This document shows, one piece after another, positions 5,314 to 30,117 of a stretch of DNA of 30,117 nt. Source of the DNA: a virus; the IMG/VR virus record IMGVR_UViG_3300027970_001598, positions 1 to 30,117 of that record; one strand, 5' to 3'. Below the pieces are notes generated by a model. That model worked only from the letters and a program-made list of their open reading frames with translations. It had not been told where the DNA came from and made no database searches. The position numbers and the translations under genes are program-made. Numbering within the stretch: the first letter of the stretch is position 1; every line of letters starts with the position of its first letter.

Positions 5314-5339
5314 AAAAAAGCACCCGAAGGTGCTTTTTT
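5314..5339 (+). terminator. Rho-independent terminator after the homing endonuclease
   Basis: A perfect 11-base stem (AAAAAAGCACC / GGTGCTTTTTT) with a CGAA tetraloop and terminal T run, 22 bases after the endonuclease stop. Its right flank (TTTTTTGTTG) is the same as that of the terminator after gp23. Confidence 0.9.
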
Positions 5340-5369
5340 GTTGGCCGAGAATTATTGTACCCAAGCTGG

Positions 5370-5375
5370 TAAATA
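5370..5375 (+). promoter_or_regulatory. Candidate T4-type late promoter element of fiber gene A
   Basis: TAAATA, the core of the T4 late -10 element (TATAAATA), begins exactly 26 bases before the ATG of the first fiber gene and is followed by AAGGAAA. The second fiber gene has the same element at the same distance, which is the main support. AT-rich DNA makes chance matches common. Confidence 0.4.
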
Positions 5376-5395
5376 CATCAAAGGAAACTGTAACC

Positions 5396-12244: not shown

Positions 12245-12247
12245 CAA

Positions 12248-12360
12248 ATGATATTAAAAATTGGCACTGGAATCACCTATGGTGATTCTGGAGTCATATA
12301 AAACTTCAACGATAATCGAGCAAGGTTTAGTTACTGATAATTTAGATCTTAAAAAAACCT
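12248..12360 (+). pseudogene. Possible relic of a virion structural gene start
   Basis: An ATG at 12248 opens MILKIGTGITYGDSGVI and stops after 17 codons. In another frame the following bases read TSTIIEQGLVTDNLDL before a stop near 12360. Many phage structural proteins begin with a K-I-G-x-G-I-T phrase and soon have a G-L-V-x-N-L-D phrase before a lectin-like domain, so this may be the decayed beginning of such a gene, cut by a frameshift. It also holds a perfect 8-base hairpin (GAATCACC-TAT-GGTGATTC, 12270-12288) without a U tract. The end overlaps the minus-strand gene's 3' end. Evidence is thin. Confidence 0.3.
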
Positions 12361-13493: not shown

Positions 13494-13541
13494 GTGAATA
13501 TTTAAGAAGTTTCTCACTGGACTCAAAATATCTCATTATCC

Positions 13542-13548
13542 ATAAATA
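13542..13548 (+). promoter_or_regulatory. Candidate T4-type late promoter (ATAAATA)
   Basis: CATAAATA differs by one base from the T4 late -10 consensus TATAAATA. It lies 96 bases upstream of the structural gene at 13638, inside the gap between divergent genes, the place a promoter is needed. Confidence 0.55.
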
Positions 13549-13556
13549 AGTGCTGT

Positions 13557-13593
13557 ACGCAATTCTGCGTCTTATGCGGTTTCCCTGCCGCGT
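13557..13593 (+). promoter_or_regulatory. Two small hairpins in the leader of the structural gene
   Basis: ACGCA-ATTC-TGCGT (13557-13570) is followed by a second stem, ATGCGG with CCGCGT (13574-13579 and 13588-13593, one G-U pair). They are GC-rich compared with the surroundings and sit just downstream of the candidate late promoter and upstream of the strong TTAAGGAGA ribosome site near 13620-13628. They may stabilise the transcript; no known riboswitch or RNA family is recognised. Confidence 0.4.
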
Positions 13594-13637
13594 AGAAGCT
13601 AGAACCTTCATCGGACTTCTTTAAGGAGAAAAAAATC

Positions 13638-14453
13638 ATGGGACGTCCTCTAAAAATTCAAAAATTCAGTTTAAATACTGGTGTTGGTAGCCCTGGCGCC
13701 AACACCCCAGTGGATCTTGCTTATCCACCTTTCAGCGCTCTGGATGTTCCAGTTTACAATGCACCTACACAGACACTAAATGCAGCACAGTTCTTGGGAG
13801 TTGTTGGCGGATCACCTGCCACAAGTCAACCTACTGCTACCTATCCAGAAGTGCTGGCCACTGTGAATATTCTATATCCTGATGGCAATACCACCGGTGC
13901 AGGCGCAGGCCGTATTATTCGCCAGAAAGGCAATCACAAATATTTGGTAGCTTATACCGCAAGTACAGTAGCCGATGGGAGCTTTACTGTGGGTCAAGCA
14001 TATCAAATTGCTGCATTAGGTACTACTAATTGGCAAACAGTTGGTGCAGGAACTGGCAACGTGGCAGTTGGTGATATTTTCACCGCCACTGAGGTTGACG
14101 GCAGTGGAAATGGTACTGCATATCCAGTAGGCGTGTGCATATTGTCCAACACCGGATCGCCGGCAGCTGGTTTCATGAGCATTGGTTACGAATCTGGCGA
14201 CAGTTCAGTTGCTTATGCTAGTAACCTCAGCAACAAGTGGGTACGTGATTGGACTGGAACTACTAACGACTACAGCGATACTAACTTGGGCGAAGTCAGT
14301 TATACCAGTGAAAATTACTATGTGGCCAACTTCTTCACAGACGAAGGTGGTGTTTCACAATCTGGTCTAGAAGTGGATACTGCTACAGAATCTGTTGCAG
14401 GTGCACCAGATGGTTACATTCCATTGGCAGTTATCGACAACGTTACTTCCTAA
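13638..14453 (+). CDS. Probable virion structural protein (MGRPLK family)
   Basis: 271 residues. The N-terminus MGRPLKIQKFSLNTGVGSPG resembles virion proteins of T4-like aquatic phages that begin MGRPL. Residues ~110-160 contain the widespread phage module seen here as VGQAYQIAALGTTNWQTVGA followed by GDIFTATEVDGSGNGTAY. The protein is Gly/Thr/Ser/Ala-rich with few charged residues, as in beta-rich virion components. A strong AAGGAG precedes it, together with a candidate late promoter and a structured leader, so strong late expression is likely. It ends 16 bases before a terminator. A tail, fiber-associated or capsid-decoration role cannot be separated from sequence alone. Confidence 0.7.
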   Translation: MGRPLKIQKFSLNTGVGSPGANTPVDLAYPPFSALDVPVYNAPTQTLNAAQFLGVVGGSPATSQPTATYPEVLATVNILYPDGNTTGAGAGRIIRQKGNHKYLVAYTASTVADGSFTVGQAYQIAALGTTNWQTVGAGTGNVAVGDIFTATEVDGSGNGTAYPVGVCILSNTGSPAAGFMSIGYESGDSSVAYASNLSNKWVRDWTGTTNDYSDTNLGEVSYTSENYYVANFFTDEGGVSQSGLEVDTATESVAGAPDGYIPLAVIDNVTS

Positions 14454-14468
14454 TATTTAGGAACTCAT

Positions 14469-14502
14469 AATCCTCTCAGCTACATACTGGGGGGATTTTT
14501 TT
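14469..14502 (+). terminator. Terminator that doubles as the leader of the next gene
   Basis: Stem AATCCTCTCAG (14469-14479) pairs with CTGGGGGGATT (14487-14497) including two G-U pairs, loop CTACATA, then a run of T directly before the ATG at 14503. The G-rich right arm is also the only possible ribosome-binding site of the next gene, so termination and translation start use the same bases. Confidence 0.75.
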
Positions 14503-15090
14503 ATGACCGTGGCATTTGTGTTGGGAAATGGGCAGAGTCGATCTGTATTGGATTTAACAAGATTTAAACCATTGGGATCCGTCTATGGCTGTAATGGCTT
14601 ATACAGGGATTACAAGCCCGACTGTCTTGTGGCAACTGATCGTCCAATTGCAGAAGAAATACAAAGATCTGGGTACAGCAAGAATCATAGATTTTACACA
14701 AGAAAACCACTGACAGATTTAGGAGCGCAGGTTGTTCCTAGAAAATATCATGGTAATAGTTCTGGCCCTATTGCATGTGCAATTGCTGCAATGGATGGAC
14801 ATGATCGTATCTATATGTTGGGATTTGACATGGGGCCCAGCGTATCAATGAGATTTAACAATGTGTATGCTGGTACAGCATTCTATAAAAGTGCAGATGC
14901 TGCACCAACGTACACAGGCAATTGGATACGTCAAGTTGTTACATTAGTTACGGATTTTTCCAACACTAAATTTATTCGTGTATGCGGAACTACCACAGCT
15001 GATATAAAAGAATTTAAAAATATTAAAAATTTTGAACATATAGATATCAAAACATTCATTTATCGTTTAGATACTTTGGGAGAGCTATAG
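14503..15090 (+). CDS. LGNG-motif phage protein, possible DUF115/Maf-like sugar-related enzyme
   Basis: 195 residues, beginning MTVAFVLGNGQSRSVLDLTRF, then VYGCNGLYRDYKPDCLVATD and DRIYMLGFDMG. The pattern of a start L-G-N-G-x-S-R strand-turn, G-C-N-xx-Y-R-D and a later L-G-F-D is seen in small proteins of T4-like phages and vaguely resembles the Maf/DUF115 group tied to nonulosonic acid transfer. I do not assign a reaction. The ATG follows a terminator stem by a few bases, and the G-rich stem arm is the only Shine-Dalgarno-like sequence. It stands 46 bases before fiber B, among glycan genes, which makes a glycan role plausible. Confidence 0.65.
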   Translation: MTVAFVLGNGQSRSVLDLTRFKPLGSVYGCNGLYRDYKPDCLVATDRPIAEEIQRSGYSKNHRFYTRKPLTDLGAQVVPRKYHGNSSGPIACAIAAMDGHDRIYMLGFDMGPSVSMRFNNVYAGTAFYKSADAAPTYTGNWIRQVVTLVTDFSNTKFIRVCGTTTADIKEFKNIKNFEHIDIKTFIYRLDTLGEL

Positions 15091-15110
15091 TATTTCTTCA
15101 CCAACTCTGC

Positions 15111-15116
15111 TAAATA
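15111..15116 (+). promoter_or_regulatory. Candidate T4-type late promoter element of fiber gene B
   Basis: TAAATA starts exactly 26 bases before the ATG at 15137 and is followed by GAAGGAAATTTGAAC, closely matching the layout in front of fiber A (TAAATA, then AAAGGAAACTGTAAC). The start of transcription would fall next to the ribosome site, giving a very short leader. Confidence 0.4.
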
Positions 15117-15136
15117 GATTGAAGGAAATTTGAACT

Positions 15137-18100
15137 ATGGCTATAATTAAAACACCTGGCGCTGGCGTTTCGCCTTATGAAACAACCGCTGATGTACCTA
15201 CTACACCTACTACAGGTGCTAATACAGCGGTGTTTGTGTCTGGGCAAGCAGCATTAAATAGTTTGATTACAAGCGGTCAACCCGGGGTGTTTGAAGGAGC
15301 CAATGTTACTATTAACCTTGAAGAACAAAGTTTCAGCACTACCAATCAAGTCACTGCCACTACCAACTATCCGTCAGGTAATACAGGAGAGATACAATAT
15401 AATTCAGGTTTTGAAAGTTTTGCCAGCGATGCTTTTTTTACCTACGCCAACGGCAATGTTATAACACCAGGTATACGCACCAACAATTACTTATATGCTA
15501 ATGGAGCACCATTTTTAGCTGGAGGCAATGCTGCTATTGGCAATTTTGTGTTCACTGGCGATAACATGACCATTAGTCATGCCAATAGTGCATTAAGCAT
15601 AATTGGTAATGGAACTGGTGATATAAATATTTCTGCTAATAGTAACACTTGGGTATTTGCCGCAGATGGTAATCTAACATTCCCTGGTGCAATCACAGGC
15701 GCAGGTAATGTACAGGCCAATTATTTCTTTGGCAATGGTTCACAACTTACAGGTATTGATTCTGCGGCCATATCAAACGGCACCAGCAATGTGCAAGTAT
15801 TCAATAATGGTAATGTCACGGTCAGTGTGGCGTCAAATAATATAGCAACATTTGCAACAACTGGATTGTTAACAACAGGATTAATTTCTAGTACAGGAAA
15901 TGTACAAGCAGCTGGATTTACTTACGCAAATGGTCAACCGGTAGCAGGATCTGGTGCACAAGGCACAACTGGTGCTCAGGGCACAACTGGCGCTCAAGGC
16001 ACAACTGGCGCTCAGGGCGTACAAGGTGTTGAAGGCTTACAAGGTATAACTGGTGCTCAAGGCACAACTGGCGCTCAAGGCACAACTGGTGCTCAAGGTA
16101 CAACTGGTGCTCAGGGCGTACAAGGTGTTGAAGGCTTACAAGGTATAACTGGCGCTCAGGGCACAACTGGCGCTCAGGGCGTACAAGGTGTTGAAGGCTT
16201 ACAAGGTATAACTGGCGCTCAAGGCACAACTGGCGCTCAGGGCACAACTGGCGCTCAGGGCGTACAAGGTGTTGAAGGCTTACAAGGTATAACTGGCGCT
16301 CAAGGCACAACTGGTGCCCAAGGTACAACTGGCGCTCAGGGCGTACAAGGTGTTGAAGGCTTACAAGGTATAACTGGCGCTCAAGGCACAACTGGTGCCC
16401 AAGGTACAACTGGCGCTCAGGGCGTACAAGGTGTTCAGGGTGTTCAGGGTGTTGAAGGCCTTCAGGGTGTGCAAGGTGTACAGGGTGTGCAAGGTATACA
16501 AGGTGTACAAGGTATTCAGGGCGTACAAGGTGTTGAAGGCCTTCAGGGTGTGCAAGGTGTACAGGGTGTGCAAGGTATACAAGGTGTAACTGGCGCTCAA
16601 GGTGTGCAAGGCGTACAGGGTATTCAGGGAGTACAAGGCGTTGAAGGCCTTCAAGGCGTGCAAGGTGTACAAGGAGTTGAAGGCCTCCAGGGTGTGCAAG
16701 GTGTACAAGGTACACAAGGTGTACAAGGTGTACAAGGTGTACAAGCTGCGCAAGGTACACAAGGTGTACAGGGTGTGCAAGGTGTGCAAGGTACACAAGG
16801 TGTAACTAGTGCTCAGGGCACAACTGGCGCACAAGGCACAACCGGTGCTCAAGGTACACAAGGTGTACAAGGGCCAACGCCTGCTGTTGCAGCAGCATTC
16901 AATGTGTGCGGAACCAATAACATTGTAAGTTGTCTTGGTGGTGCAGGTGGTACTGGCACCAATAATTTCTTTGCTGGTGAATGTGCTGGCAGTTGCAATA
17001 CCACCGGCAACCACAACACGTTTATTGGTACCTATGCTGGTTTCTGTAATATCACTGGCAGCAACAACTTCTTTGCTGGTCAGTGTGCCGGTCGTCTCAA
17101 CACTACCGGATCAACAAATATCTTTGTTGGATGTAATTCAGGTTGTGCAGTAAACACAGGTTGTAGTAACACAATCATTGGTTCAATAGTTGGTACAGCT
17201 GGGTTATGCAACACAGTCGTACTGGCAGCAGGTAGCACAGAACGATTGCGAGTAGATTCAACTGGTTTATCTATCAATGGATCACCATTCCCTGCTGTAG
17301 ATTTGTCGGCTATCATGCAAGATGTAATACCTGCGATTAATGGTGTCTATGATATTGGTACAGAGGCATTTGCATGGTATAACGGATATTTTACCAACAG
17401 TTTAGTGATTAATAGCACTTCACTAACCGGCACTGAAGATGGAATGATTTTGGTAGATGCAGATACCATTGTCACCAGTGCTGATATTATAGCAGAGTCT
17501 ATACTGTTTACAGACTTATTCATTACAGACAACATGATCAGACCCTTGGCTACTCCATTGTATGGACTAAGAGAAGTCATAGTGGACGGTGGTTTGCACA
17601 TTATGAGTGAAGATCCAGCGTATTTGAGACTAAGTCAAGAAATTTCACCTATCACAAATGATTATTCCGTACTAGATACATACGGAAGTGAAGGAATGTT
17701 GCGCTTTAATCCTGTAACTAAACAGTTTGAAGGGTACAGCAGCACAGCCTGGGAGCCATTTGCAACAGCTGGTTCAGTTTCTGTGTTTGTGAAAGATACT
17801 AATGTCTTAACTTCCATATCTGGTAACAATTCAAGCACTGGCACCAACAACGTCTTCTTTGGTGCCTGTGCTGGGTTTTGCAACACTACAGGCAGCAATA
17901 ATTTCTTTGCTGGTAAATGTGCTGGATTTTTTAATACCACCGGTAGCTGTAACATTTTCATTGGTCTCTATGCTGGTTACTGTAATAGTGGCCGTTACAA
18001 CAACTTCTTTGGTGCAGGTGCTGGCGCACTCAATAGTGGCTGGTTCAACAACTTCTTTGGTTTAAATGCTGGCCTTTTAAATAGTGGTTGTGACAACAAC

Positions 18101-19825
18101 TTCTTTGGTTTAAATGCTGGCCTTTACAATAGTGGTTGTGACAACAATTTCTTTAGTCGCAATGCTGGTTGCAGCAATACCACTGGCTGTAACAACAACT
18201 TCTTTGGTTCAGGTGCTGGGTTAAGTAACACCACTGGCACCAGCAATAACTTCTTTGGTCTGAGTGCTGGTGCCTGCAACACCACCGGTGTCTTCAACAA
18301 CTTCTTTGGTTCAGAGGCCGGTCTTTGCAACACTATTGGCAACTACAACAACTTCTTTGGCACAGCGTCTGGCCGATTCAATACTACCGGCTGTAGAAAC
18401 AATTTCTTTGGCCCAAGTGCTGGCCTCTGCAACACTACTGGCAGCTATAACAACTTCTTTGGTAGCTGTGCTGGTTGCAATAACATAACAGGATCCAGCA
18501 ACAATTTCATTGGTCAGGATGCTGGACTTTGTGCTACCGGCGGCAACTGGAACAACTTTATTGGTTCAGGTGCTGGTTTATGCAACACCACCGGCAGCCT
18601 CAACAATTTCTTTGGTCTGAGTGCTGGTTCTCGCAACACCACTGGCAGCAACAACAACTTCTTTGGAAACAGTGCTGGTTCCAATAATACCACTGGCAGC
18701 TATAACACCTTTATTGGTGCTTATGCTGGTAGTTCAAATACCACTGGCAGCTATAATACCTTTATTGGTCTCCGCGCAGGTCTCTGTAATACTACCGGTA
18801 GCAACAACTTCTTTGCTGGTCGGTGTGCTGGTTACAACAACACTACTGGCAACTACAACTTCTTTGCTGGCGCATGTGCTGGATTCTACAACACTACTGG
18901 AAGCCACAACACGTTTATTGGTGCCTGTGCTGGATACAAAAACACCACCGGCAGCAATAACTTCTTTGTTGGGTGCTATGCTGGTGCCTGCAACACCACT
19001 GGCAGTCACAACAACTTCTTTGGTTTAGGTGCTGGTTCGTGTAATACAACTGGCAGCAACAACACGTTCATTGGTTCAAATGCTGGTCGCAATAACACCA
19101 TTGGTATTGCCAACAACTTCATTGGTGCCTATGCTGGTTTTTGCAACACCAGTGGCAGCAACAACAACTTCTTTGGTCCTAGTGCTGGGACATACAATAC
19201 CACTGGCAGCAATAACTTCTTTGCTGGGTTCTGTGCTGGTGCCTGTAATACCACCGGCTGCCATAACACGTTCATTGGTTTCTGTGCTGGTTACAGAAAC
19301 ACCATTGGCAGCAATAACTTCTTTGCTGGGTTCTGTGCTGGTTTTTGCAACACCACTGGTACTAACAACTTGTTTTTTGGTTGTAATTCTGGTGTTGGTA
19401 CATTTGGTCTTGCAAACATTACCACAGAAAGCAATAGAATCATCATGGGCAATTGTTTACATGCCTGTGCTCAGATTCAAGTTGCCTGGACAGCAGTGTC
19501 TGATATTCGTGACAAGTGCATATTTGGTAGTGTTCCACATGGTCGTGGATTTTTACAAAAAATCAATCCAGTTAAGTTTGCATTCAAAGACCGAAACACT
19601 GGCTGTTTAACTGACATAGTTGGCAAATATCGTTATGGATTCTCTGCACAAGAAATCCTAGCAGTTGAAGGTGACAAACCAGTCATAGCCAGCAATGAAG
19701 ACCCAGACAAACTACAGCTGACTAGCGATTATCTAGTACCAGTTTTGGTAAATGCTATCAAAGAACTAAGTGCTGAATTGGATGCACTGAAAGAAAGAGT
19801 AGCATCGCTGGAATTAAAATCTTGA
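15137..19825 (+). CDS. Giant tail fiber / adhesin B, paralog of fiber A, with S74 chaperone
   Basis: 1562 residues. The N-terminus [17 protein letters not shown] and residues up to ~190 match fiber A, so both probably dock to the same virion site. Order: shared N-terminal part including one WxFxxDGNLxFP motif (~residue 171-183); collagen-like stalk 273-581; three or four NTTG repeats; a distinct middle domain (~675-895) containing [17 protein letters not shown], a phrase like those between repeats in phage fibers; about 30 NTTG repeats (~905-1420); S74 chaperone beginning SDIRDK with predicted self-cleavage before Ser-1455; coiled-coil end [10 protein letters not shown]. Unlike fiber A there is no added tip after the coiled coil. 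Good AAGGAAA upstream of the chosen ATG. Confidence 0.9.
15953..16879 (+). repeat. Collagen-like Gly-X-X repeat of fiber B (103 triplets)
   Basis: 309 residues in G-X-Y register, nearly twice as long as in fiber A. The first half alternates [12 protein letters not shown] with GVQGVEGLQ blocks. The second half is mostly GVQ, GIQ, GTQ and GLQ, with many exact short DNA repeats. Two Gly positions are replaced: Ala near 16744 (GVQ-AAQ-GTQ) and Ser at 16808-16810 (GVT-SAQ-GTT), the latter at the same place as in fiber A. Confidence 0.93.
17845..19395 (+). repeat. NTTG/FFG/AG 51-base repeat array of fiber B
   Basis: About 30 in-frame units near 17 residues, consensus [17 protein letters not shown], following a short first set of three to four units at about 16960-17130. 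Codon use is uniform (AACAACTTCTTTGGT recurring). Cys is again frequent at the two fixed places. The array ends at the beta-rich linker before the S74 domain. Confidence 0.9.
19784..19825 (+). repeat. Left member of a direct repeat flanking the AT-rich glycan cassette (fiber 3' end)
   Basis: The last 14 codons of fiber B ([13 protein letters not shown] and stop) recur, slightly decayed and one codon shorter, at 25222-25260. In between lie the six genes from 19854 to 25218. Confidence 0.75.
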
Positions 19826-19853
19826 ACAAAAATAATTCTGATAAAAAAGTATA

Positions 19854-20543
19854 ATGAAAAAAAATGATTTTGATCAACTTAAAAATTCTTGGAATACATA
19901 TGGAAAAACTGAACCATTTTGGGCAGTTCTAACAAGCGAAAATTTCAAACAACATAATCTAAATGAAAGTGAATTATCTAAATTTTATCAATCAGGTAAA
20001 CATACGATTGACAGACTTGAAAAAATATTAAATCAACATCAATCTACATTCGAGGATAAATTAGTTTTGGATTTTGGATGCGGGGTAGGCAGACTTACCA
20101 AACCCTGCTTGGAAATTTGTAAGAAAATTTATGGTTTGGACATTGGCCAATCTTATTTAGATATTGCAAAAAAAACAGTTCCCACCGGAGAGTTTTTTTT
20201 AGTAGACAATTTTAACAAATTACCAGATCTTCCATCCAATCCTGATATTATTTACAGCATAATAACACTTCAACACAATAGACCAATGTTGATGAAATTA
20301 TATGTATTTTTATTGCTTAAATCTTTGAATAAATATGGAATAGCACTATTGCATATCCCATACAAAGTTAATAATTATATTTCTCATAATGACAACCACC
20401 ATAGAATGGAAATGCATTTTTTAGAAAAATCTGAAGTTAGAAAAATAGTTAATACTGTTGGCTGTCAAATATTAGACACAGTTGAAACAAAGTATTGTGG
20501 AGAAAGCATTTTTGACTGCATTTATGTGATTAGAAAAATATGA
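19854..20543 (+). CDS. Class I SAM-dependent methyltransferase
   Basis: 229 residues. Motif I is VLDFGCGVGRLT (residues 71-82), the glycine-rich loop that binds S-adenosylmethionine; the acidic end of the next strand is Asp-96 in YGLDIGQS; IIYSIITLQHN (132-142) fits the post-III region of the Methyltransf_11/25 type. The substrate cannot be read from sequence. It is the first gene of an AT-rich cassette and overlaps the next glycosyltransferase by 4 bases (ATGA), indicating translational coupling, so a sugar O-methyltransferase is a reasonable guess. The ribosome site is weak. It starts 28 bases after the fiber B stop with no terminator seen, so it may be read through from the fiber gene. Confidence 0.82.
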   Translation: MKKNDFDQLKNSWNTYGKTEPFWAVLTSENFKQHNLNESELSKFYQSGKHTIDRLEKILNQHQSTFEDKLVLDFGCGVGRLTKPCLEICKKIYGLDIGQSYLDIAKKTVPTGEFFLVDNFNKLPDLPSNPDIIYSIITLQHNRPMLMKLYVFLLLKSLNKYGIALLHIPYKVNNYISHNDNHHRMEMHFLEKSEVRKIVNTVGCQILDTVETKYCGESIFDCIYVIRKI

Positions 20544-22084
20544 TTCCAAATACATTATGGCAAACCTGGAAAACAAAAGAAATACCAGTTTCTTTAAAAC
20601 AACAGTGTGATTCCTGGAGTTTTAGTAATCCACAATTATCCAGGAATTTGTTTAACGACAGTGATTGTGACAAGTTTATCCTAGATAATTTTGGTGAGGA
20701 AGTGCATATGTTATATGTTTCGCTTCCTCAACCAATTATGCGAGCTGATTTTTGGCGGTTAGCTGTGGTTTACATAAATGGTGGTTATTACTCAGACTTA
20801 GATATCACATGCACTAAACAACTTTCATCATTTTCAAATTCATCAGCTGAGATTGTGTTGATGAAAGAGCTTGATAACATTGCCAATTTCTTTTTTGGTG
20901 CAACGCCAAAACATCCAGTTTTAAAATTGGCACTGGATTATATGATCGAAGAAGCAAGGTCAATCACTGATAAAGAAACACAGTCGTATGGCATGCATAG
21001 CCTTCACCGTGCTGTTCGAGAGCACTACTCAGTGATAGGAACTGACTTTCCTAACAATCAACATGTTCAGATTTTAAACAATGAACAACTCAAAGCTGAC
21101 CGCATTCTTATTCACAGCGCAGCAAGTATTATGAATACTTCAGCCGACTATACTTCTTGGCGAGCCACTGATAAAGTCATGCAAGATAAAAGATCACATG
21201 CATGCAACGTTTTATTTTTTACTACTTTCAACGATAACGGGTATGATTTATATGGTAAGACGTGGATTGAAACTTTCGTAAAAATTGCCAATTACTATCC
21301 ATCAATAAAGGCCAAGATCTATTACGAAGGCCGCCGGCCGCCAATTATGCATCCTAATATTACCTATGTTAGTTTCACCAAAGAGATTCCTTATCATAAG
21401 GTGTGGAAAGATCAATTGCACAAAAGGTCAAATCACGACGACTACGTGAAGACTATGATTGAACGATTCAGTTACAAATCATTTGTTATTCAAGATGTTT
21501 TAAACAAACACACCGATGATTATCTAATTTGGCTCGATGGTGACTGTGTATTCAAGGCAGCAGACTACAGCAACTTTCCTAAGAATTTATTGGGTGATAA
21601 GTTCTTGGCATGTCAGGTTGAAGAGAATCACGATTTGAACCACGTTGAAAGTGGTATCTTAATTTTCAACGGTAAACATCCTGATACCCAAAGATTCAAC
21701 GAAAGATTCATTAAAAACTATACATTTGAAGAGCTTCTTCCTATGGGTCAACCCTACGATGGATTTGTTGTGTTTAGATCACTATTAATGTCTGGTCTAA
21801 AATATGTAAATCTCAATGATGGTTATGGTCGCGGCGGCATTCAATCTGATCCAAATTGCACATTCCAACATCCAGATATCAAGGTCAAGTTCATTCATAA
21901 CATTGGATGGACAGGAAAACATCAATACGAAAACTGGGAAAAAGTTTTTGATAACGACGATATATTCAAAAAGGTAAAAGGATTTTTATTTGGTCAATCA
22001 ACAGTGACTATTGCTCATCGCAAAAAAGTCAACAACGAGAAGTTAAAAAACCTATTACAAAAAAGAGCTAGTATTAAAAGATGA
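20540..22084 (+). CDS. Two-domain glycosyltransferase (GT32-like plus second GT-A-like domain)
   Basis: 514 residues. The N-terminal half is a Gly_transf_sug (GT32-like) domain: IPNTLWQTWKTKEIP, the RADFWRLAVVYINGGYY block and the metal-binding DXD as SDLDITC (Asp-86, Asp-88). The second half (~residue 220-514) begins ACNVLFFTTFNDNGYDLYGK and holds its own acidic motif, IWLDGDCVF (331-338), followed by VESGILIFNG and a long C-terminal part, consistent with another GT-A transferase. Two active domains in one chain would allow two successive sugar additions, which is inference. The start overlaps the methyltransferase stop by 4 bases. The gap after it to 22173 is 88 bases with nothing recognisable. 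Confidence 0.83.
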   Translation: MIPNTLWQTWKTKEIPVSLKQQCDSWSFSNPQLSRNLFNDSDCDKFILDNFGEEVHMLYVSLPQPIMRADFWRLAVVYINGGYYSDLDITCTKQLSSFSNSSAEIVLMKELDNIANFFFGATPKHPVLKLALDYMIEEARSITDKETQSYGMHSLHRAVREHYSVIGTDFPNNQHVQILNNEQLKADRILIHSAASIMNTSADYTSWRATDKVMQDKRSHACNVLFFTTFNDNGYDLYGKTWIETFVKIANYYPSIKAKIYYEGRRPPIMHPNITYVSFTKEIPYHKVWKDQLHKRSNHDDYVKTMIERFSYKSFVIQDVLNKHTDDYLIWLDGDCVFKAADYSNFPKNLLGDKFLACQVEENHDLNHVESGILIFNGKHPDTQRFNERFIKNYTFEELLPMGQPYDGFVVFRSLLMSGLKYVNLNDGYGRGGIQSDPNCTFQHPDIKVKFIHNIGWTGKHQYENWEKVFDNDDIFKKVKGFLFGQSTVTIAHRKKVNNEKLKNLLQKRASIKR

Positions 22085-22172
22085 ATCCAACATATATAAG
22101 ATTTAAAAAACTTGGGTAAGTCATTGGGATGAAAAATAACACGAAGCATTTTAAAATAGACAGAATCAAATT

Positions 22173-22955
22173 ATGAAAATTTTACCAACATCTCTAGAAC
22201 CAGTGGACACACCTACCCGTAGTCATTTAATTCCAAAGGTCATATACCAGACATGGAAATCTAATAATCTGACAGATTACTTGCACGATTGTGCTTATAC
22301 GTGGATAAGTAAAAACCCTGATTATAGATATGAGTTTTTTGATGATGCTAGGTTAGAAAAATTCGTGCATGACTTTGATTGTAGCAATTTTACGTTTACT
22401 CGTGACGATATGTTAAGAGCATTCAATAGCTATGCTCACCCAGTAGGCAAGGCTGATATATGGCGGTATTTTGTAATATATGCCAATGGTGGAGTGTATA
22501 TGGACATTGATACAAAGTGTGCTACACCTTTAAGTAAATACGTGGATGACACAGACACGTATGTTACTGGTATTGATCCAGCGAGAGGCATACATCAATG
22601 GGGTATTATCATGAGCGCAAAGCACCCATTTATGAAACACACAATTGAAAACGCCATAAAGTGTACGCTTACTCGCACAAGAGTACCGGGCACCGAGAAG
22701 GAAAATGATAATTTAGAAGTATACACCGGCCCTTGGGTTATGAATTATAGTATTAAGAAACTTTTAAATATACGACCAGAAAGACACTTTGGTGCTGGCA
22801 CCTCTACTGTAATGATTGAAGGAAGCAAATATAGGATAAAGATACTTCCAAAACCTCTCATGAATGGTCATGTTGGCTTTGACCATGCAAGATATCTGCA
22901 AAATTTAAGAGATCATAATATACCTTATTGGTCAAATACTCGGCTATGGAAGTAA
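22173..22955 (+). CDS. GT32-like glycosyltransferase (DXD sugar transferase)
   Basis: 260 residues. Clear Gly_transf_sug features: IPKVIYQTWKSNNL (20-33), the acceptor-side helix, GKADIWRYFVIYANGGVY (92-109) and the DXD motif MDIDTKC (Asp-111, Asp-113), which binds the metal and nucleotide sugar. The C-terminal part contains IMSAKHPF and GPWVMNYS, typical of the family. The family includes mannosyl- and galactosyl-type enzymes, and donor specificity cannot be inferred. It is closely similar in layout to the gene at 23631. Its stop overlaps the next start by 10 bases. The DNA is AT-rich with few GC-ending codons compared with the head genes. Confidence 0.87.
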   Translation: MKILPTSLEPVDTPTRSHLIPKVIYQTWKSNNLTDYLHDCAYTWISKNPDYRYEFFDDARLEKFVHDFDCSNFTFTRDDMLRAFNSYAHPVGKADIWRYFVIYANGGVYMDIDTKCATPLSKYVDDTDTYVTGIDPARGIHQWGIIMSAKHPFMKHTIENAIKCTLTRTRVPGTEKENDNLEVYTGPWVMNYSIKKLLNIRPERHFGAGTSTVMIEGSKYRIKILPKPLMNGHVGFDHARYLQNLRDHNIPYWSNTRLWK

Positions 22956-23647
22956 CTAAAAATATATTTCAGATATTCATCTCAGAGAATGATAAGTTGT
23001 CTAACTTATCAAATGAATTAATTGAGAAAACAAATAAAGTTAAATCTGTGTATAGCGATTATAATTATACACTGTATGATAACTCAATGCTTTTAAACTT
23101 CTTATCAAGTTTTGATAAAGAGACTTTAAACAGTTACAACACGATTAAGCCATACGCATTTAAAGCGGACTTAGCCAGGTATTGTTTACTGTACGAATAT
23201 GGAGGATGGTACTTTGATATTAGTTTAGCCCCCGAACACAAACTGGAGTTTGACAATTCTGTAGATGCTTTAATAATTAAAAATCATCAAATAAACACTA
23301 TTGAAAACTGCGTCATGTACTTTAAACCAAAAAGTCAATTTTTGCTTGATGCAATCAACCAAATAAACTTTCATGTGTTGAGAAGATACTATGGATATAT
23401 ACCGCTACACGTGACTGGTCCTGGATTACTTACAAGAATTTATAATAGATATAATACTGATTATTTTAGTAACTATAGATTTGGATCATTTGTTGACCTT
23501 TCAATTCAACAGTTTGTGTGTAAGTACGATGATAAGATATTTGCTAGATTTAAGTTTCCTGAAATAAGAGGGCTGAGTCATTTAGGTGCCACGGGTACTA
23601 ATAACTATGAAACAATGTGGAGGAATAAAGATGTTTACAAGCACTAA
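22946..23647 (+). CDS. GT32-like glycosyltransferase with altered DXD (DIS)
   Basis: 233 residues from ATG 22946 (a TTG at 22928 would add six). It keeps the family plan: NIFQIFISEN at the start, a Y-x-Y-x-L-Y-D strand, the conserved FKADLARYCLLYEYGG (72-87) and WYFDIS (88-93). The second Asp of the DXD motif is Ser (Asp-91, Ile, Ser-93), whereas the paralogs on both sides have DID. The later NCVMYFKPKSQFLLDAI and HVTGPGLLTRIY stretches fit the family. It may be a diverged active enzyme, as some GT-A proteins tolerate variation here, or a non-catalytic partner. It overlaps both neighbours, so the three genes form a coupled set. Confidence 0.78.
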   Translation: MEVTKNIFQIFISENDKLSNLSNELIEKTNKVKSVYSDYNYTLYDNSMLLNFLSSFDKETLNSYNTIKPYAFKADLARYCLLYEYGGWYFDISLAPEHKLEFDNSVDALIIKNHQINTIENCVMYFKPKSQFLLDAINQINFHVLRRYYGYIPLHVTGPGLLTRIYNRYNTDYFSNYRFGSFVDLSIQQFVCKYDDKIFARFKFPEIRGLSHLGATGTNNYETMWRNKDVYKH

Positions 23648-24539
23648 TACAATACCAACATCTATACCTCCTAGGATCTCTAACGTTAGTTACCAAAAGA
23701 TTCCAAGAATAATACACCAGACGTTTAAAAAAAACACGGTGACTGATATTTTTTATCATAACGTCAGATCCTTTATAGACTTAAACCCCGAGTATCAATA
23801 TGAGTTTTACGATGACGAACGGGTGAAACAATTTATTGAAAATTTTGATTGCACTGAGTTTGCTTTTGATAGAAACACACTTATAAAAGCATATAATGAT
23901 ATAAAGCCGGGAGCAGGTAAAGCTGATATCTTTAGGTATCTTGTGATATACGAATTAGGTGGAGTCTATATAGACATTGACTCACGATGTGTTAAGCCTT
24001 TATCAAATTCAATAGATAGTGATTCAGACATAGTAACTTGTGTGCAAGGCGTTGCATACAATCACGACAATCACGAAGATAGATGGTATCACCTTTTTCC
24101 ACAGTGGATATTAATGTATTCTCCTAAATCAATCATAATGAAGGATATAATTGAAGTGTGCATAAACGCCGTGTCAACTAGAACTCCGGTTCCAAATTCA
24201 GAGAGTTGCAAGAATACGCTGGAAAAATATACTGGTATATGTTGCAGTAACTACGTATATAGATCAATCTTCAAATTTCGAAGCGTGGAACAAGAGGCCC
24301 GGCTAACACCAAGAAAATTTAATATAAAATACAAGGGTAGGCAATATAATATTTCTATCTTACCGTGTGTACCACACTTGTTTAACGATAGCATTATAAG
24401 CAAGTATATAGGAAACGTCAGCATAAATCAAGCTACATACACAAAAGAAGAAGCAATGATTCACATTGATACTTACCAATGTGAATTAATTAAAAATGAT
24501 TCCGTACACTGGCTGAATCAGTCTGTTTTTAATGATTAA
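23631..24539 (+). CDS. GT32-like glycosyltransferase (DXD sugar transferase)
   Basis: 302 residues starting MFTSTNTIPTSIPPR; GGAGG 8 bases upstream supports this ATG over upstream in-frame starts. IPRIIHQTFKKNTV (24-37), YEFYDDERVKQFI (57-69), GKADIFRYLVIYELGGVY (96-113) and the DXD motif IDIDSRC (Asp-115, Asp-117) define the Gly_transf_sug fold. It closely parallels the gene at 22173, so the two arose by duplication; the DIS variant lies between them. The ~40 residues past the usual C-terminus (KEEAMIHIDTYQCELIK...) are extra. It overlaps the previous gene by 17 bases and the following sulfotransferase start by 8 bases. Confidence 0.87.
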   Translation: MFTSTNTIPTSIPPRISNVSYQKIPRIIHQTFKKNTVTDIFYHNVRSFIDLNPEYQYEFYDDERVKQFIENFDCTEFAFDRNTLIKAYNDIKPGAGKADIFRYLVIYELGGVYIDIDSRCVKPLSNSIDSDSDIVTCVQGVAYNHDNHEDRWYHLFPQWILMYSPKSIIMKDIIEVCINAVSTRTPVPNSESCKNTLEKYTGICCSNYVYRSIFKFRSVEQEARLTPRKFNIKYKGRQYNISILPCVPHLFNDSIISKYIGNVSINQATYTKEEAMIHIDTYQCELIKNDSVHWLNQSVFND

Positions 24540-25218
24540 TTTAATGAAAAAAGTATATGAGTTTTGGGGAATGCAGCGTAGTGGAAATCACGCTATTTTA
24601 AACTGGCAACTGGAAAATTTTTGTGACGACTCACAAAAACAGCCTATACTGGATGACTTTTGCTTTCATACCAGCAATACTCTTTTCTTAAATGCAATTA
24701 TGTTGAATGATAAAAAAAATATCACTGATAGCGATCTAAGAAAATGCTTAAAATTAAAATTTAATAACATAATACTTTCTTACTAAGATTCAAATTTTGA
24801 TAAAAGTTTGGGTCTACCATGTAAGCAGTTTGTTATCATGCGAAATCTTGAAAATTTAGTTGCAAGTAGAATGTATGGAGTGGATCAAGAGTGGCCAGTA
24901 GACGATAATTTTTTTGAAATGTGGGAAACATATGCAAGAAGCAACATACCCAAGATTCATTACGATAAATGGTTAGTTGATAAGTCATATAGAGATTCCA
25001 TTGCGCAAATGTTTAACACTGATAATAAAGACATTACTAGTATAATGAGCGTAGCAGGAGGTGGATCATCCTTCATTGGCATCAAATTAGATAAACCAGA
25101 AAATTTATTAACAAGATACCAACAGATAGATATACCACCAGATATAAAAAAGAAAATTATGTATTATGGTGAACGCAATCCAGAATTTTGTAATCTTGCA
25201 CAACTGAAGGACATTTGA
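24532..25218 (+). pseudogene. Sulfotransferase-like gene interrupted by one in-frame stop
   Basis: One frame encodes a complete small P-loop sulfotransferase-like protein of about 228 residues except for TAA at 24784-24786 (codon 85). Before it: YEFWGMQRSGNHAILNW (9-25), the phosphosulfate-binding loop of PAPS sulfotransferases. After it: FVIMRNLENLVASRMYG (the 3'-phosphate-binding R and S), IHYDKWLVDKSYRD and AGGGSSFIGIK, all typical of this family. The stop lies in LSY-stop-DSN where relatives commonly have SYED, so a single G-to-T change of a Glu codon explains it. Options are a recent pseudogene, readthrough, two separate chains, or a sequence error. It overlaps the glycosyltransferase before it and ends next to the fiber relic. 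Confidence 0.75.
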
Positions 25219-25221
25219 TAT

Positions 25222-25260
25222 GCGCTGAAAAAAGTGGCATCGCTGGAATTTAAATCTTGA
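25222..25260 (+). repeat. Relic of a tail fiber 3' end
   Basis: Thirteen codons read ALKKVASLEFKS and stop, against [13 protein letters not shown] and stop at the end of fiber B (19784-19825). The bases GCATCGCTGGAATT are identical, and TAAATCTTGA differs from the fiber copy in one base. No longer open frame leads into it: upstream the match is lost within a few bases. It lies directly after the broken sulfotransferase and marks the right border of the AT-rich cassette. Confidence 0.75.
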
Positions 25261-25309
25261 CATTACATGACCAAGGCTATATAGTTGTATTAGTTCCCAG
25301 GGAAATCTG

Positions 25310-25954
25310 ATGAAAAAAATATTGATTGCTACTCCGTGCCTTGATCAAAAGGTTGATGCTTACTTTGTACATAGCCTATGCGAATCTATCAAGCTGGGCA
25401 TTAAACACAATCTGGACATTCGGTGTGTGTTTCTAGCAAACGAAAGCATTTTGCCAATGGCCAGAAATGAACTTTTTGCCCTGGCATACAAAGAAAATTA
25501 CGACACAATGGTGTTCATTGACGACGACGAGAGTTGGGATGAAACTGCACTGATTGAAATCATACAATCTGAAAAAGATGTAGTCGCGTTACCAGTTGTT
25601 AACAAAGGTGATAAAGATATTACTTTCAATGTTTGGTTAACCAAAGACACTAAAAAAGATGAATCTGACGGATACATAAAGATCAACAAATGCGGTACAG
25701 GTTTTTTAAAACTCTCAAGAAAAGTAATTGAGGACCTGTGGAACTCAAACACAGAGCTGGTTTTTAGAAATAAAAAAATAAAAAACATCTGCGAGTACAC
25801 ACATGTCAACGGTGATTTTGTTGGCGAAGACATAACACTTGCTGGCAAAATCAAAGATCTTGGATACGATATCTGGCTTAACCCAAACCATACTGTGTCG
25901 CATATAGGTAACAAAATGTATCGAGGCGACTTCAAGCTCAAGAACAATTTATGA
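25310..25954 (+). CDS. GT2/Anp1-like glycosyltransferase
   Basis: 214 residues, a compact GT-A enzyme. It begins MKKILIATPCLDQKVDAYFV, has NESILPMARNELF (44-56) and the acidic motif VFIDDDESWDE (68-78), where the DDD would bind metal and nucleotide sugar. FNVWLTKDT, then GTGFLKLSRKVIEDLW and the late VGEDITLAGKIKDLGYDIW are the acceptor and GED-like motifs of phage and bacterial GT2 proteins. Base composition is less AT-rich than the cassette to its left, so it probably belongs to the older resident set. It overlaps the next gene by 4 bases (ATGA). A GGGAAA before the ATG may serve as ribosome site. Confidence 0.8.
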   Translation: MKKILIATPCLDQKVDAYFVHSLCESIKLGIKHNLDIRCVFLANESILPMARNELFALAYKENYDTMVFIDDDESWDETALIEIIQSEKDVVALPVVNKGDKDITFNVWLTKDTKKDESDGYIKINKCGTGFLKLSRKVIEDLWNSNTELVFRNKKIKNICEYTHVNGDFVGEDITLAGKIKDLGYDIWLNPNHTVSHIGNKMYRGDFKLKNNL

Positions 25955-27249
25955 TTGACATCATCATCCCCACAATGTGGATGGCAAAAACTACCACTGC
26001 TGCAATACAAAAATATTGCAAAAATCCAAAAGTCAACAAAATCATCTTGGTGGACAATAACAGCAAGATGCGTCCCTCTGAATTTTCTAAAATCATATCC
26101 GATCCCAAGATTGAATATGTGTGTTACAATAAGAACATATATGTTAATCCGGCCTGGAATGAAGGTTACTTTAGAAGCACTTCGGAAATTATTGCAATCA
26201 TCAATGATGATATTGTGGTCGAGGACGACGTGTTTGACCTAGTGTTAAATCACAATTTAAAATCAGGAGACTTGGTTGGAGTTAATCTCCGCGGATACCA
26301 AGATAATTATAAAATTGATGATCACATAGAAACCAAAGAAGAGATCATCAAGTTAAACTACGATCGAACATCACCTATCGGTGGTCAGTTGTGGGCATTT
26401 GGCATATGTATGTTCATGCATAGAAGCACATACAAAATTATTCCTAGTTTGTATCAGATTTGGTATGGAGATGATTATCTTGCACAGAATGCAAAAAACG
26501 TGTACGGGATCAATAGCAATCGGATAAAGGGTAACATTTCTGAGACTCTTAAAACATTTAATAATCCCAACGATGATGTTTCTAAACGAATAGAATTGGA
26601 TTCAAAAAACTTTTTGATGTTTAGTCATTTTTATAATGAAAAAAAGTGGGATCTACCCAACAACATGATTAAAATGTATGAGAGTCAACGGAAATCCGCA
26701 ACACAGAACAAACAAGATGTATTTGAAGTTGAGTATCAACGTGCAAAAAAAACATCAAGCGATATCAATCAAAACTTGCCTGTACTTTATGAATTGGCCA
26801 AAGAGTGCGACACTATAGTTGAGATGGGAGTTAGAACTGGAGTGAGCACTCGTGCTTTTCTAAACACAGATGCTTCACTGATATCAATTGATATTCAAAA
26901 GAATGCAAAAGTTGAAAAACTGTTTGCATTGGCTGATGCCAGTGGAAAATCCTGCCAATACATGATTGGTGATACGTTGAAGATTGAAATTCCAGAAACA
27001 GACCTACTGTTCATTGATACGCTACATACATACGAACAATTAACACAAGAGTTAAAACTGCACGGAAACAAAGCAAAAAAGTATTTGATTTTTCATGACA
27101 CACACACGTTTGGAGTGACGGGTGAGATTGGTATTGATAAAAAAGGTCTCATGCCTGCTGTTATTGAATTTGTAATTGCAAACCCACATTGGGGATTTTA
27201 TATCCATAAGACAAATAACAATGGGTTAACTGTTTTAAAACGTTCGTAA
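25951..27249 (+). CDS. Fusion of GT2-like glycosyltransferase and SAM methyltransferase
   Basis: 432 residues. Residues 1-~225 are GT2-like: MIDIIIPTMWMAKTTT, IILVDNNSKM (31-40), PAWNEGYFRS, IIAIINDDIVVEDDVF (80-95) and GGQLWAFGICMFMHRSTY. Residues ~270-432 are a Methyltransf_24-type or cephalosporin-hydroxylase-like methyltransferase: IVEMGVRTGVSTRAFL (from ~289), ISIDIQKN, LLFIDTLHTYEQL (~352-364) and YLIFHDTHTFG (~378-388). A single chain that adds and methylates a sugar is plausible but inferred. The central FYNEKKWDLPNNMIKMYESQ region is a linker. Translationally coupled to the preceding gene through a 4-base overlap. Confidence 0.85.
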   Translation: MIDIIIPTMWMAKTTTAAIQKYCKNPKVNKIILVDNNSKMRPSEFSKIISDPKIEYVCYNKNIYVNPAWNEGYFRSTSEIIAIINDDIVVEDDVFDLVLNHNLKSGDLVGVNLRGYQDNYKIDDHIETKEEIIKLNYDRTSPIGGQLWAFGICMFMHRSTYKIIPSLYQIWYGDDYLAQNAKNVYGINSNRIKGNISETLKTFNNPNDDVSKRIELDSKNFLMFSHFYNEKKWDLPNNMIKMYESQRKSATQNKQDVFEVEYQRAKKTSSDINQNLPVLYELAKECDTIVEMGVRTGVSTRAFLNTDASLISIDIQKNAKVEKLFALADASGKSCQYMIGDTLKIEIPETDLLFIDTLHTYEQLTQELKLHGNKAKKYLIFHDTHTFGVTGEIGIDKKGLMPAVIEFVIANPHWGFYIHKTNNNGLTVLKRS

Positions 27250-27277
27250 ATTACTAGATAAATATATTGAGGAAAAC

Positions 27278-28174
27278 ATGAAGTATAGCATTTTTCACCT
27301 GCAAGGTGGTATTGGAAAACATGTCGCTGCCACGGCGGTAGCAAGAGTGATCAAAAATAATCATCCGGATAGAAAGCTCATTGTGGTATGTGCATATCCA
27401 GATATTTTTATCAACTTACCTTTTGTTGATAGAGTATTTACACTGGGCAATACCAGTTATTTCTATCAAGAGTTTGTGCAAGACAAAGATTCTATCTTGT
27501 TCCATCACGAACCGTATTATACCACTAATCACATACACAAGAGAAAAAAGTTAATTGAAAATTGGTGTGATATGTATGGGTTGAAATACAGTGGCGAACA
27601 ACCAGAATTGAAGTTCAACAAGTTACAATATGATATTTCTAAAGGTTTCTGGGGCAGGAAAAAACCCATAATGTTTTTACACACCAATGGTGGCATGATG
27701 ACAAATGATGCCAAACCATACGCCTGGACACGAGACATGCCTGTTGATGTTGCACAGGAACTGGTTGATCACTATAAAAAAGACTATCATATATATCAGG
27801 TTACCAAACTCAACTCACCAAAATTACAAGGTGCTGAACACATTTTTGCCACACAACAACAGTCGCTGTCTTTGATGGAGTTGTTCAGTATTTTGCTGCA
27901 CAGTAAAAAACGTATTTTGATTGATTCTTGCCTACAACATGCCGCAGCAGCAATGAAACGCAAATCTACAGTGTTGTGGAATGGCACAAGCCCCAAGGTA
28001 TTTGGATACGATTTGCATGAGAATATCTGTACAGATATCCCTTATGACTTTAAACTTCCAGGCAGTTACTTATTTGACTTTGATTTCAACGGAAACGAAG
28101 TTGAATACCCCTTTACTGACGAGGTCAAACTGTTCGACATAAATAAGATTATCGAGTCAGTTGATAAACAATAA
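27278..28174 (+). CDS. GT9-like glycosyltransferase (ADP-heptose transferase-like)
   Basis: 298 residues. The N-terminus FHLQGGIGKHVAATAVARVI (6-25) with the following KLIVVCAYPDIFINLPFVDRVF matches the first Rossmann half of GT9 heptosyltransferase-like proteins. In the second half, LMELFSILLHSKKRILIDSCLQHAAAAM corresponds to the family's D-(S/T)-x-x-x-H-x-A-A motif, with Cys-Leu-Gln in the middle. It is smaller than typical heptosyltransferases (about 340 residues). The final ~50 residues (DFDFNGNEVEYPFTDEVKLFDI) are unlike the family. The start has a good TTGAGGAAAAC. Substrate unknown. A single TAAATA lies 19 bases upstream of the ATG, probably too close to be a promoter for this gene. 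Confidence 0.75.
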   Translation: MKYSIFHLQGGIGKHVAATAVARVIKNNHPDRKLIVVCAYPDIFINLPFVDRVFTLGNTSYFYQEFVQDKDSILFHHEPYYTTNHIHKRKKLIENWCDMYGLKYSGEQPELKFNKLQYDISKGFWGRKKPIMFLHTNGGMMTNDAKPYAWTRDMPVDVAQELVDHYKKDYHIYQVTKLNSPKLQGAEHIFATQQQSLSLMELFSILLHSKKRILIDSCLQHAAAAMKRKSTVLWNGTSPKVFGYDLHENICTDIPYDFKLPGSYLFDFDFNGNEVEYPFTDEVKLFDINKIIESVDKQ

Positions 28175-28186
28175 AGTGAGAAACAC

Positions 28187-29152
28187 ATGAAAGACATGAT
28201 CAAAGAAATTATACGTGAAGAAATGATGAAGACTATGATGAAGAAATACTACTTCATGTCCGGGTTACCTCGGTCTGGTAGCACTTTGCTTTCTGCAATC
28301 TTGAATCAAAATCCCAGAATGCACTCAGGTCCAAGTTCACCTGTGGTGGGGATCATGCTCACCCTTGAGAATGCAATTGCCAATGATGAATTATTTTTAG
28401 CTTACCCAAAACCAGAACAGGCAGGCAAAATAATTAGCAATGTGATTGAAAACTATTACTCAGACGTGGATAAACCAGTTATCATTGATAAAAATCGTTC
28501 TTGGGTGAATCGCATGCATTACATTCCTGGATACTTTGGCGTTGAACCAAAAATTCTTTGCCCAGTCAGAAACATTGATGAAATTTTGACATCATTCATT
28601 ACTATGTATCGTAGAAATCCATTTGATGGAAACAGCAAAGTTAACTTCATGGATGAGATGTTGATCAAAAGTAACATACCACTCAATGATGAAAATAGAT
28701 GTGAACTCTTGGCCAGCCCCAATGGTATACTTGGACAAAGTTACAATGGCATTCGTCAAGCAATCATGGAAGGCAGGGGAAAACAAATTCATTTCATTGA
28801 GTATGATGATTTGACAAATAATCCCAACGAGACCATGCGTAAGATTTATGAGTTTCTGGAAGAAGAATATTTTGAACATGATTTTTCAAACATACAGAAC
28901 ATTCATAAAGAACACGATGCAGAAGTGTATGGTCTTGCAGACATGCACCATGTGCGTGAAACTTTAGAAAAAGTTTCTGCAGACCCAGTGGAAATTTTAC
29001 CTGAAACAACAATTAAAAAATGTGAAGGTGCAGAGTTCTGGAGAACTCTGAATGAAGTTTATGATGAAACGCAGGAGTTGGATCTTGATGAAACATCAGC
29101 AGATGTAGATGAATTGTCAGATCAAAATGATACAAAACTAATAGGAGAATAA
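28187..29152 (+). CDS. PAPS-dependent sulfotransferase (Sulfotransfer_3-like)
   Basis: 321 residues. Such enzymes transfer sulfate from PAPS to a hydroxyl or amine, here probably of a glycan. The 5'-phosphosulfate loop is FMSGLPRSGSTLLSAIL (23-39); the 3'-phosphate motif is CPVRNIDEILTSF (125-137) with R128 and S136; FIEYDDLTNNPNETMRKIYEFL is the usual third block. Family resemblance is strong and the length usual, with an 18-residue Met/Glu/Lys-rich N-terminal extension before KKYYF. The acidic C-terminus (~residue 290-321, DETQELDLDETSADVDE) is extra. It belongs to a different sulfotransferase group from the broken gene at 24532. It lies 12 bases after the GT9-like gene and 1 base before the next ORF. 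Confidence 0.88.
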   Translation: MKDMIKEIIREEMMKTMMKKYYFMSGLPRSGSTLLSAILNQNPRMHSGPSSPVVGIMLTLENAIANDELFLAYPKPEQAGKIISNVIENYYSDVDKPVIIDKNRSWVNRMHYIPGYFGVEPKILCPVRNIDEILTSFITMYRRNPFDGNSKVNFMDEMLIKSNIPLNDENRCELLASPNGILGQSYNGIRQAIMEGRGKQIHFIEYDDLTNNPNETMRKIYEFLEEEYFEHDFSNIQNIHKEHDAEVYGLADMHHVRETLEKVSADPVEILPETTIKKCEGAEFWRTLNEVYDETQELDLDETSADVDELSDQNDTKLIGE

Positions 29153-29153
29153 A

Positions 29154-29420
29154 ATGGGAAACACACCAAGAACACTTGAACAAATTCAAGGAACAATTCG
29201 TGCAGCACGAGACAGCGTTTGGGTTATCTCTGATGAGATTGAAAAACTAACCACAAGAGGTGAATTGACCAATGAAGGTCGTGGAAATCTTGAACGAAAT
29301 GTTGGTCATTTAAAACTAGTTGTTGCGGACACAGAACTTGTGGCATCTGGTGAAGATATTGCTGATCTACATAGTGCTATTGTAGCAGGCGAACAAGCAT
29401 TGGAAAATAATCCAGCTTAA
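29154..29420 (+). CDS. Small helical protein of unknown function
   Basis: 88 residues, entirely helix-prone: RTLEQIQGTIRAARDSVWVI, then ERNVGHLKLVVADTELVA and HSAIVAGEQALENN. There is no signal peptide, membrane segment or Cys. It has a good AGGAG ribosome site and begins one base after the sulfotransferase stop, so it is co-expressed with it. I do not recognise the family. A short two- or three-helix bundle could be an adaptor or small virion component, but nothing in the sequence decides. Confidence 0.6.
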   Translation: MGNTPRTLEQIQGTIRAARDSVWVISDEIEKLTTRGELTNEGRGNLERNVGHLKLVVADTELVASGEDIADLHSAIVAGEQALENNPA

Positions 29421-29480
29421 ACGCTACTCGAATCACAACAGATTTAATTCTGTGTAATTTGTGTCTGCATAAATGTATGT

Positions 29481-30117
29481 GTGACTACATCATTATCTCA
29501 ACAAATATATAAAAACGGGCTAGCCAAGCCCGTGATCGCTGCCGGCGGCAGTGTACATCCGCTGATCATCCCAGCTGATTCATCAGGCACCGGCCTAATG
29601 AATCCGTCTATCTATATAGACGGACAAACAATTTTGGTAAATCTACGCCATGTGAATTATACACTATGGCATAGTGAACACAAAAAGTTTGAACACAGAT
29701 ACGGACCGCTGCAATATCTACATCCAGAAAACGATATTCATCTTCGCACATGGAACTACATGTGCATATTAAACCCTGATCTCACAATCAGACAAGTGAC
29801 AAAAGTGGACACATCTGAATGTGATAAAGAACCAATCTGGGAATTTGTGGGGTTAGAAGATGCAAGATTGGTAAGATGGGATCACAAATTGTGGTTAACT
29901 GGAGTACGTAGAGATACTACCACTCACGGTGAAGGACGTATGGAACTGTCAGAGATTGATATGTTCCTGGATCAAGTTAAAGAAACCACACGCAAGCGTA
30001 TTCCTGCACTGGGAGATAACACTAGCTATTGTGAGAAAAACTGGATGCCGGTACTGGATCAACCGTTTACCTATGTCAAGTGGACCAATCCTACAGAAGT
30101 AGTAAAATACGATATCA
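29481..30117 (+). CDS. GH130-like glycoside phosphorylase/hydrolase-like protein (partial, runs off the right edge)
   Basis: At least 212 residues, open to the end of the window. The frame is open from 29448; GTG at 29481 (MTTSLSQQIYKNGLAKPV...) is the first plausible start, with no good ribosome site. Features suggest a five-bladed propeller of the GH130/DUF377 type: GLMNPSIYIDGQTILVNLRH near the N-terminus, WEFVGLEDARLVRWDHKLWL (about 118-137, the E-D-x-R-L motif that family members use around the active site), GVRRD, then CEKNWMPV (the E-K-N motif). Members cleave or phosphorolyse mannosides; whether this one is active cannot be judged. The last ~60 bases before it hold no other feature. 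Confidence 0.6.
   Translation, partial: MTTSLSQQIYKNGLAKPVIAAGGSVHPLIIPADSSGTGLMNPSIYIDGQTILVNLRHVNYTLWHSEHKKFEHRYGPLQYLHPENDIHLRTWNYMCILNPDLTIRQVTKVDTSECDKEPIWEFVGLEDARLVRWDHKLWLTGVRRDTTTHGEGRMELSEIDMFLDQVKETTRKRIPALGDNTSYCEKNWMPVLDQPFTYVKWTNPTEVVKYDI

Follow-up and report, generated by a model that had tools for sequence, protein, structure and literature searches.

Phage fibre regions are mosaic, and what fixes the edges of a swapped piece is usually unclear. The DNA analysed here, a window of 30,117 nucleotides (the whole stretch under study), raises this question in a legible form: a short copy of the 3' end of a tail fibre gene stands by itself behind a set of glycan genes, and it must be asked which fibre it came from and why it is still there. 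Our data suggest that one swap edge can be read in the DNA, and that it stops just short of a putative promoter overlapping a fibre stop codon.

The phage appears to be T4-like and of a lake type. The ORF at 3217-4428 shares 64% identity with proteins annotated as the major capsid protein in T4-like phages, and the lake label is taken from the kind of relatives found. An independent 7.8-kb contig (L050) is 99.99% identical to positions 1-7181 of the window and reaches about 630 nt further upstream. Between the capsid gene and the first fibre lies a GIY-YIG endonuclease of the SegE type with NUMOD3 (4465-5292), possibly a homing enzyme beside the fibre array. The fibres, the glycan genes, the relic and the promoter discussed below are all on the + strand. 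Fibre A (5303-12244, 2313 aa) has collagen-like repeats and an S74-like domain, behind which lies an additional C-terminal extension. Fibre B (15137-19825, 1562 aa) has collagen repeats (PF01391, E 5.5e-46), matches PHROG tail fibre families and ends in an S74-like C-terminal chaperone domain (19430-19822; PF13884, E 2.8e-4), which scores 21.5 bits against a gathering cutoff of 22. The likeness to S74-type (endosialidase) chaperone domains extends to all 11 of the 11 fibre C-termini aligned, which match PF13884 with E up to 0.1; in contrast to such domains, the scores here lie around or below the Pfam cutoff. The terminal stretch is predicted to be helical, in a structure model whose mean pLDDT of 45 was too poor for a fold search.

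Fibre B is followed by a cassette of six genes (19854-25218): a methyltransferase (19854-20543; PF13649, E 1.3e-8), four DXD-type glycosyltransferases matching PF04488 (20540-22084, E 3.8e-10; 22173-22955, E 3.7e-15; 22946-23647, E 6.8e-11; 23631-24539, E 4.4e-13) and a sixth gene (24544-25218) in which an in-frame TAA at 24784-24786 is the sole interruption, pointing to a recent pseudogene or to an error in sequencing. This last gene, which had no Pfam, PHROG or PDB match, we presume to be sulfotransferase-like from a motif alone. Among the cassette genes searched for relatives, only the one at 20540 had any (L045-L047, 62-73% identity), in other contexts and without the operon that begins at 25310. 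Searches of viral collections found no relatives of the genes at 22173 and 24808, no reference phage was related to the 20540 gene or to the read-through of the sixth gene, and a cassette donor was searched for and not found. In one of the three loci carrying a relative of the 20540 gene, the last 44 codons of a methyltransferase like that at 19854-20543 are flanked by a 242-aa gene and by the 20540 homologue (L047:3741-3872); judging from its sequence, this is apparently a further 3' remnant of a replaced gene, in a region of similar kind.

Immediately behind the cassette lies the fibre 3'-end relic (25219-25260, about 41 bases), which reads YALKKVASLEFKS followed by a stop and is the counterpart of the 14 C-terminal residues of fibre B. 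Its first base directly follows the stop codon (25216-25218) of the last cassette ORF, and it shares the reading frame of that gene (24544-25218). By BLASTN with 25100-25330 as query against the window, 25220-25260 matches the intact fibre B 3' end at 19782-19825, with 37 of 44 positions identical and a single 3-nt gap that keeps the frame (E 9e-7); a second search returned this match with E 4.5e-8. There are exactly two occurrences of the pattern GCATCGCTGGAATTNAAATCTTGA in the window, at 19802-19825 and at 25237-25260, against 0 expected from shuffles. An earlier note on this DNA had described a decayed copy of the last 14 codons of fibre B at 25222-25260, directly 3' of the last cassette gene, and both the copy and its position are borne out. 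The same note had named, as a reading that would speak against its own, that this 39-base segment might be a common unrelated motif. Coiled-coil fibre ends do have composition in common, but the zero shuffle expectation, the BLASTN E value of 9e-7 and the significance of the relic against shuffles rule out a chance motif as its origin, and the exact degenerate pattern has no match in IMG/VR, so that chance resemblance is exceedingly improbable. The same pattern search found no intact fibre in IMG/VR that ends in the relic's version, which the note had proposed to look for.

What the relic once belonged to is indicated by the relatives of its right-hand neighbour, the glycosyltransferase-like gene at 25310-25954 (phrog_1574, E 1.5e-18; weak PF00535 match, E 0.015). 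This gene opens an operon whose remainder (25951-29420) comprises a glycosyltransferase 2 plus methyltransferase, a GT9-like gene, a sulfotransferase and an 88-aa gene. A search with the 25310 gene yielded 41 viral loci carrying a homologue, and most of these have, directly before it, the end of a fibre whose C-terminus is of the same S74-like kind. For the closest relative, L010, whose downstream DNA and operon are about 93% identical to the window and whose contig begins inside its last fibre, the alignment with the relic region takes in the end of the fibre, the spacer and the start of the gene (145 nt, 80.7%). The relic therefore occupies the position orthologous to an intact fibre end and is probably what remains of a fibre gene formerly next to the glycan operon downstream. 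L005 likewise has an intact fibre ending at the relic's place, ahead of the same gene. The view that the relic is a true fibre remnant is thus upheld, and its place is the one where relatives keep an intact fibre end.

Other relatives have lost that end. In L006, a second relic follows an unrelated 119-aa ORF and matches the L005 fibre end with 78% identity along 89 nt; none of 1000 shuffles did as well. The position before the promoter is held in L004 by an ORF with a weak tail-assembly-chaperone match and in L007/L008 by a fibre-length ORF with a different C-terminus; here the alignments span the promoter, but the DNA upstream of it is not clearly above shuffles (p about 0.01-0.13) and so not clearly fibre-derived, which leaves two firm relics, those of the window and L006. 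In L012, a GNAT-like gene plus a desaturase occupy the exchange site. Altogether, the DNA between the fibre end and the next operon differs strongly among relatives. On the gene tree, the loci with a TATAnT promoter form one group, although its deepest joins have low support; the intact L010 and L005 are placed among the loci with a replaced fibre end and split them, so replacement occurred more than once (the position of L004 is weakly supported). The proposal that fibre 3' ends are exchange points for glycan genes survives in part: relatives' DNA varies there and fibre 3' domains recombine, but the exchange is not specific to glycan genes, as the contents of L006, L004, L007/L008 and L012 make clear.

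The operon itself also comes and goes. Phages of the window's own lineage, with capsid proteins 97-98% identical, have a fibre directly before the homologue of the next gene (29481-30116, open at the window end) and no glycan operon, which makes the operon a variable block. L064 and L071, the latter with two further small fibre-type ORFs, are examples; the junction between fibre and 29481 homologue is found in L134-L154, and where relatives are without the operon, it is usually the 29481 gene that adjoins the last fibre on the right. Base composition agrees only partly with the idea of an AT-rich cassette bounded by the relic. The cassette genes are indeed at 29-37.5% GC versus about 45% for the fibres, but low GC persists to the right of the relic as far as about 29150 (36-38% for the four genes spanning 25310-29152), so the glycan region extends beyond the relic. 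The 25310 homologue is even richer in AT (27-33% GC) in most of the other phages in which the operon occurs.

The constant element at this site is a candidate sigma70-type promoter, TTGACA-N17-TATAGT (25257-25285), matching 11 of 12 consensus positions. Its -35 box (TTGACA, 25257-25262) contains the stop codon of the relic, and its -10 box (TATAGT) lies at 25280-25285; it thus has both hexamers of a sigma70-type promoter, a spacing within 16-18 nt and a conserved place. From its sequence, it would be a near-perfect promoter for the downstream operon. TTGACA-N17-TATA(A/C/G)T is intact upstream of the operon in the window and in L004, L005, L006, L007, L008 and L010, including loci with a replaced fibre end, and the fibre TGA stop falls inside the TTGACA box in L005 and L010 (intact fibre) as in the window (relic). 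Since intact promoters stand behind varying upstream DNA, it is the promoter that stays constant, with a fibre stub still legible beside it in some loci. More distant relatives are mostly without this promoter. Promoter-like sites overall are as frequent in 11500-30117 as in shuffles (57 versus 57.4), and 25257-25285 is the sole 11/12 site with 17-nt spacing in that interval. Over all fetched loci (2.92 Mb, both strands), TTGACA-N16-18-TATANT is rare, with 78 matches, and shows a strong strand bias, 66 in gene sense versus 12 opposite; 19 of 43 distinct sense-strand sites sit 5-120 nt before an ORF start. The T4 late promoter TATAAATA gave 2 matches, not above chance and none at the cassette. 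The end of fibre B reads TTGAACA and carries no TTGACA-N17-TATAGT-like promoter, so the cassette starts without a strong promoter of that type. Strong hairpins (z -4.2 to -5.4) lie between the fibre stop and the glycan operon in four relatives (L009:4717-4772, L010:1661-1708, L011:9937-10000 and L015:9961-10000), with a -10-like TATAAT or TATACT at the tip in L009, L010 and L011; the corresponding hairpin is lost in the window (z +1.65).

An explanation has to account for the homology and position of the relic, the promoter-like sequence common to relatives, the second relic in L006 and the mosaic fibre 3' domains. We consider it rather probable that a fibre directly preceding the 25310 operon left its 3' end as the relic, which was kept by way of the promoter after a mosaic replacement. 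Recombination within the fibre array would have delivered the 3' portion of a fibre together with its trailing cassette (19854-25218), the left junction most likely running through shared fibre sequence and the right one falling within the last codons of the resident fibre, just upstream of 25257-25285. The product would be an intact fibre end of donor type, then the cassette, then the stub of the resident fibre, retained as promoter-proximal DNA because the right junction fell where it did. Between the window and L010, the C-terminal domains of the fibres are 75-95% identical at the DNA level in 60-nt blocks, and the fibre A C-terminal domain in L048 (665-1216) is a mosaic, with about 170 nt of L010-type sequence inside fibre A-type sequence. 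Read as a direct recombination tract, this mosaic demonstrates exchange between fibre ends in the lineage, and recombination through fibre sequence is favoured for that reason. Retention of the relic is best explained by its position, since it supplies part of the -35 box and adjoining upstream DNA; selection for the promoter and its upstream flank may have preserved it. We infer that the promoter is active, in what order the events took place and that selection caused the retention. Points against this explanation are that the promoter is a prediction from sequence and promoter-like sites overall are no more frequent than in shuffles, that most of the more distant relatives are without it, that the DNA upstream of it in L004 and L007/L008 is not clearly fibre-derived, and that the search for a cassette donor was negative.

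A single mosaic recombination of this kind yields the same picture without a true duplication or a third fibre, the two origins that the earlier note had proposed. Under the latter, a third fibre (fibre C) once ended at 25260 and lost its body, the relic being its stub and the cassette the trailing genes of fibre B. We regard this as a serious possibility, though a doubtful one. Several fibre-like ORFs do occur between the 14503 and 29481 homologues in L067, L071 and L142, glycan genes follow fibre A too, and fibre A, fibre B and the last fibre of L010 are mutually about equidistant (75-78% DNA identity), as if that of L010 were another paralogue. However, no relative was found with fibre B, the cassette and an intact third fibre, and the slot of the last L010 fibre is not readable in a contig that starts inside it. 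Insertion of the cassette after fibre B by a process that duplicated its last 14 codons is unlikely: the 3' side of the relic is orthologous to the L010 spacer and the DNA downstream of fibre B is unrelated; under a duplication, the relic would have to be the older copy and the fibre B end the new one; and no mobile element or integrase is among the window genes examined. That the coding part of the relic is slightly nearer to fibre B than to L010 (5 versus 7 substitutions, counted by eye on alignments) speaks for it.

An artefact would dispense with both events. The window is a single 30,117-base virus record and no independent contig was found that spans the junction near 25219, as would fit a metagenome assembly chimera. 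The relic and fibre B are, however, not a collapsed exact repeat, because the copies differ by several substitutions and the 3-nt gap; moreover, L006, another record, has the same arrangement, and synteny with L010 is intact downstream. We therefore rate a chimera as very improbable and retain mosaic replacement ending at the promoter as the preferred origin of the relic.

On this basis we tentatively propose, as a general model that may well not hold, that swapping is anchored at the promoter: an early-type promoter of the glycan operon would incorporate the stop codon of the fibre before it, so that fibres and cassettes to its left could be exchanged while expression is kept, each swap leaving a stub as its footprint. 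If true, a change in receptor binding would be tied to a change in sugar genes without breaking their expression, and the model would predict where relics occur in other phages. No description of promoter-anchored fibre-end stubs was found in the literature covered, which was mostly open-access.

Tail fibres intermixed with glycosyltransferases and variable between relatives recall the host recognition cluster (HRC) of pelagimyophages and the hyperplastic or tail-fibre island of T4-like cyanophages, which, in the available portions of PMC7029224, are likewise variable islands of T4-like aquatic phages with fibres and glycosyltransferases. The likeness includes the L006 operon, which lies between fibres and neck-type genes (neck assignment by reading translations). 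The window's island, in contrast, directly follows the major capsid gene; as it does not lie between VrlC and the neck gene gp14, it is a comparable island and not a strict HRC. Those portions of the paper describe gene content, whereas fibre-end relics and a promoter overlapping the fibre stop are the feature here. Glycan-type genes of the pelagimyophage HRC are thought to alter the host surface and prevent coinfection (PMC7029224, same portions), and by this analogy, and from the gene families present, the products of the cassette and operon probably modify sugars of the host surface, or virion proteins, in the course of infection. Alteromonas phages A5 and V22 have tail-fibre modules common to unrelated phages (PMC10579305), a similar horizontal exchange of host-recognition modules; unlike there, the right limit of exchange coincides here with a candidate promoter, and glycan genes are carried along.

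A similar layout recurs within the lineage at fibre A, where the end of the fibre or of a neighbouring gene is followed by a perfect promoter and a likely glycan gene. In L054/L056, L058, L060 and L064, a perfect TTGACA-N17-TATAAT lies 4-82 nt past the gene end (fibre A or the gene after it), directly before the likely glycan gene. In L144, the closing codons of a fibre-like ORF that precedes the 29481 homologue contain the -35 box.
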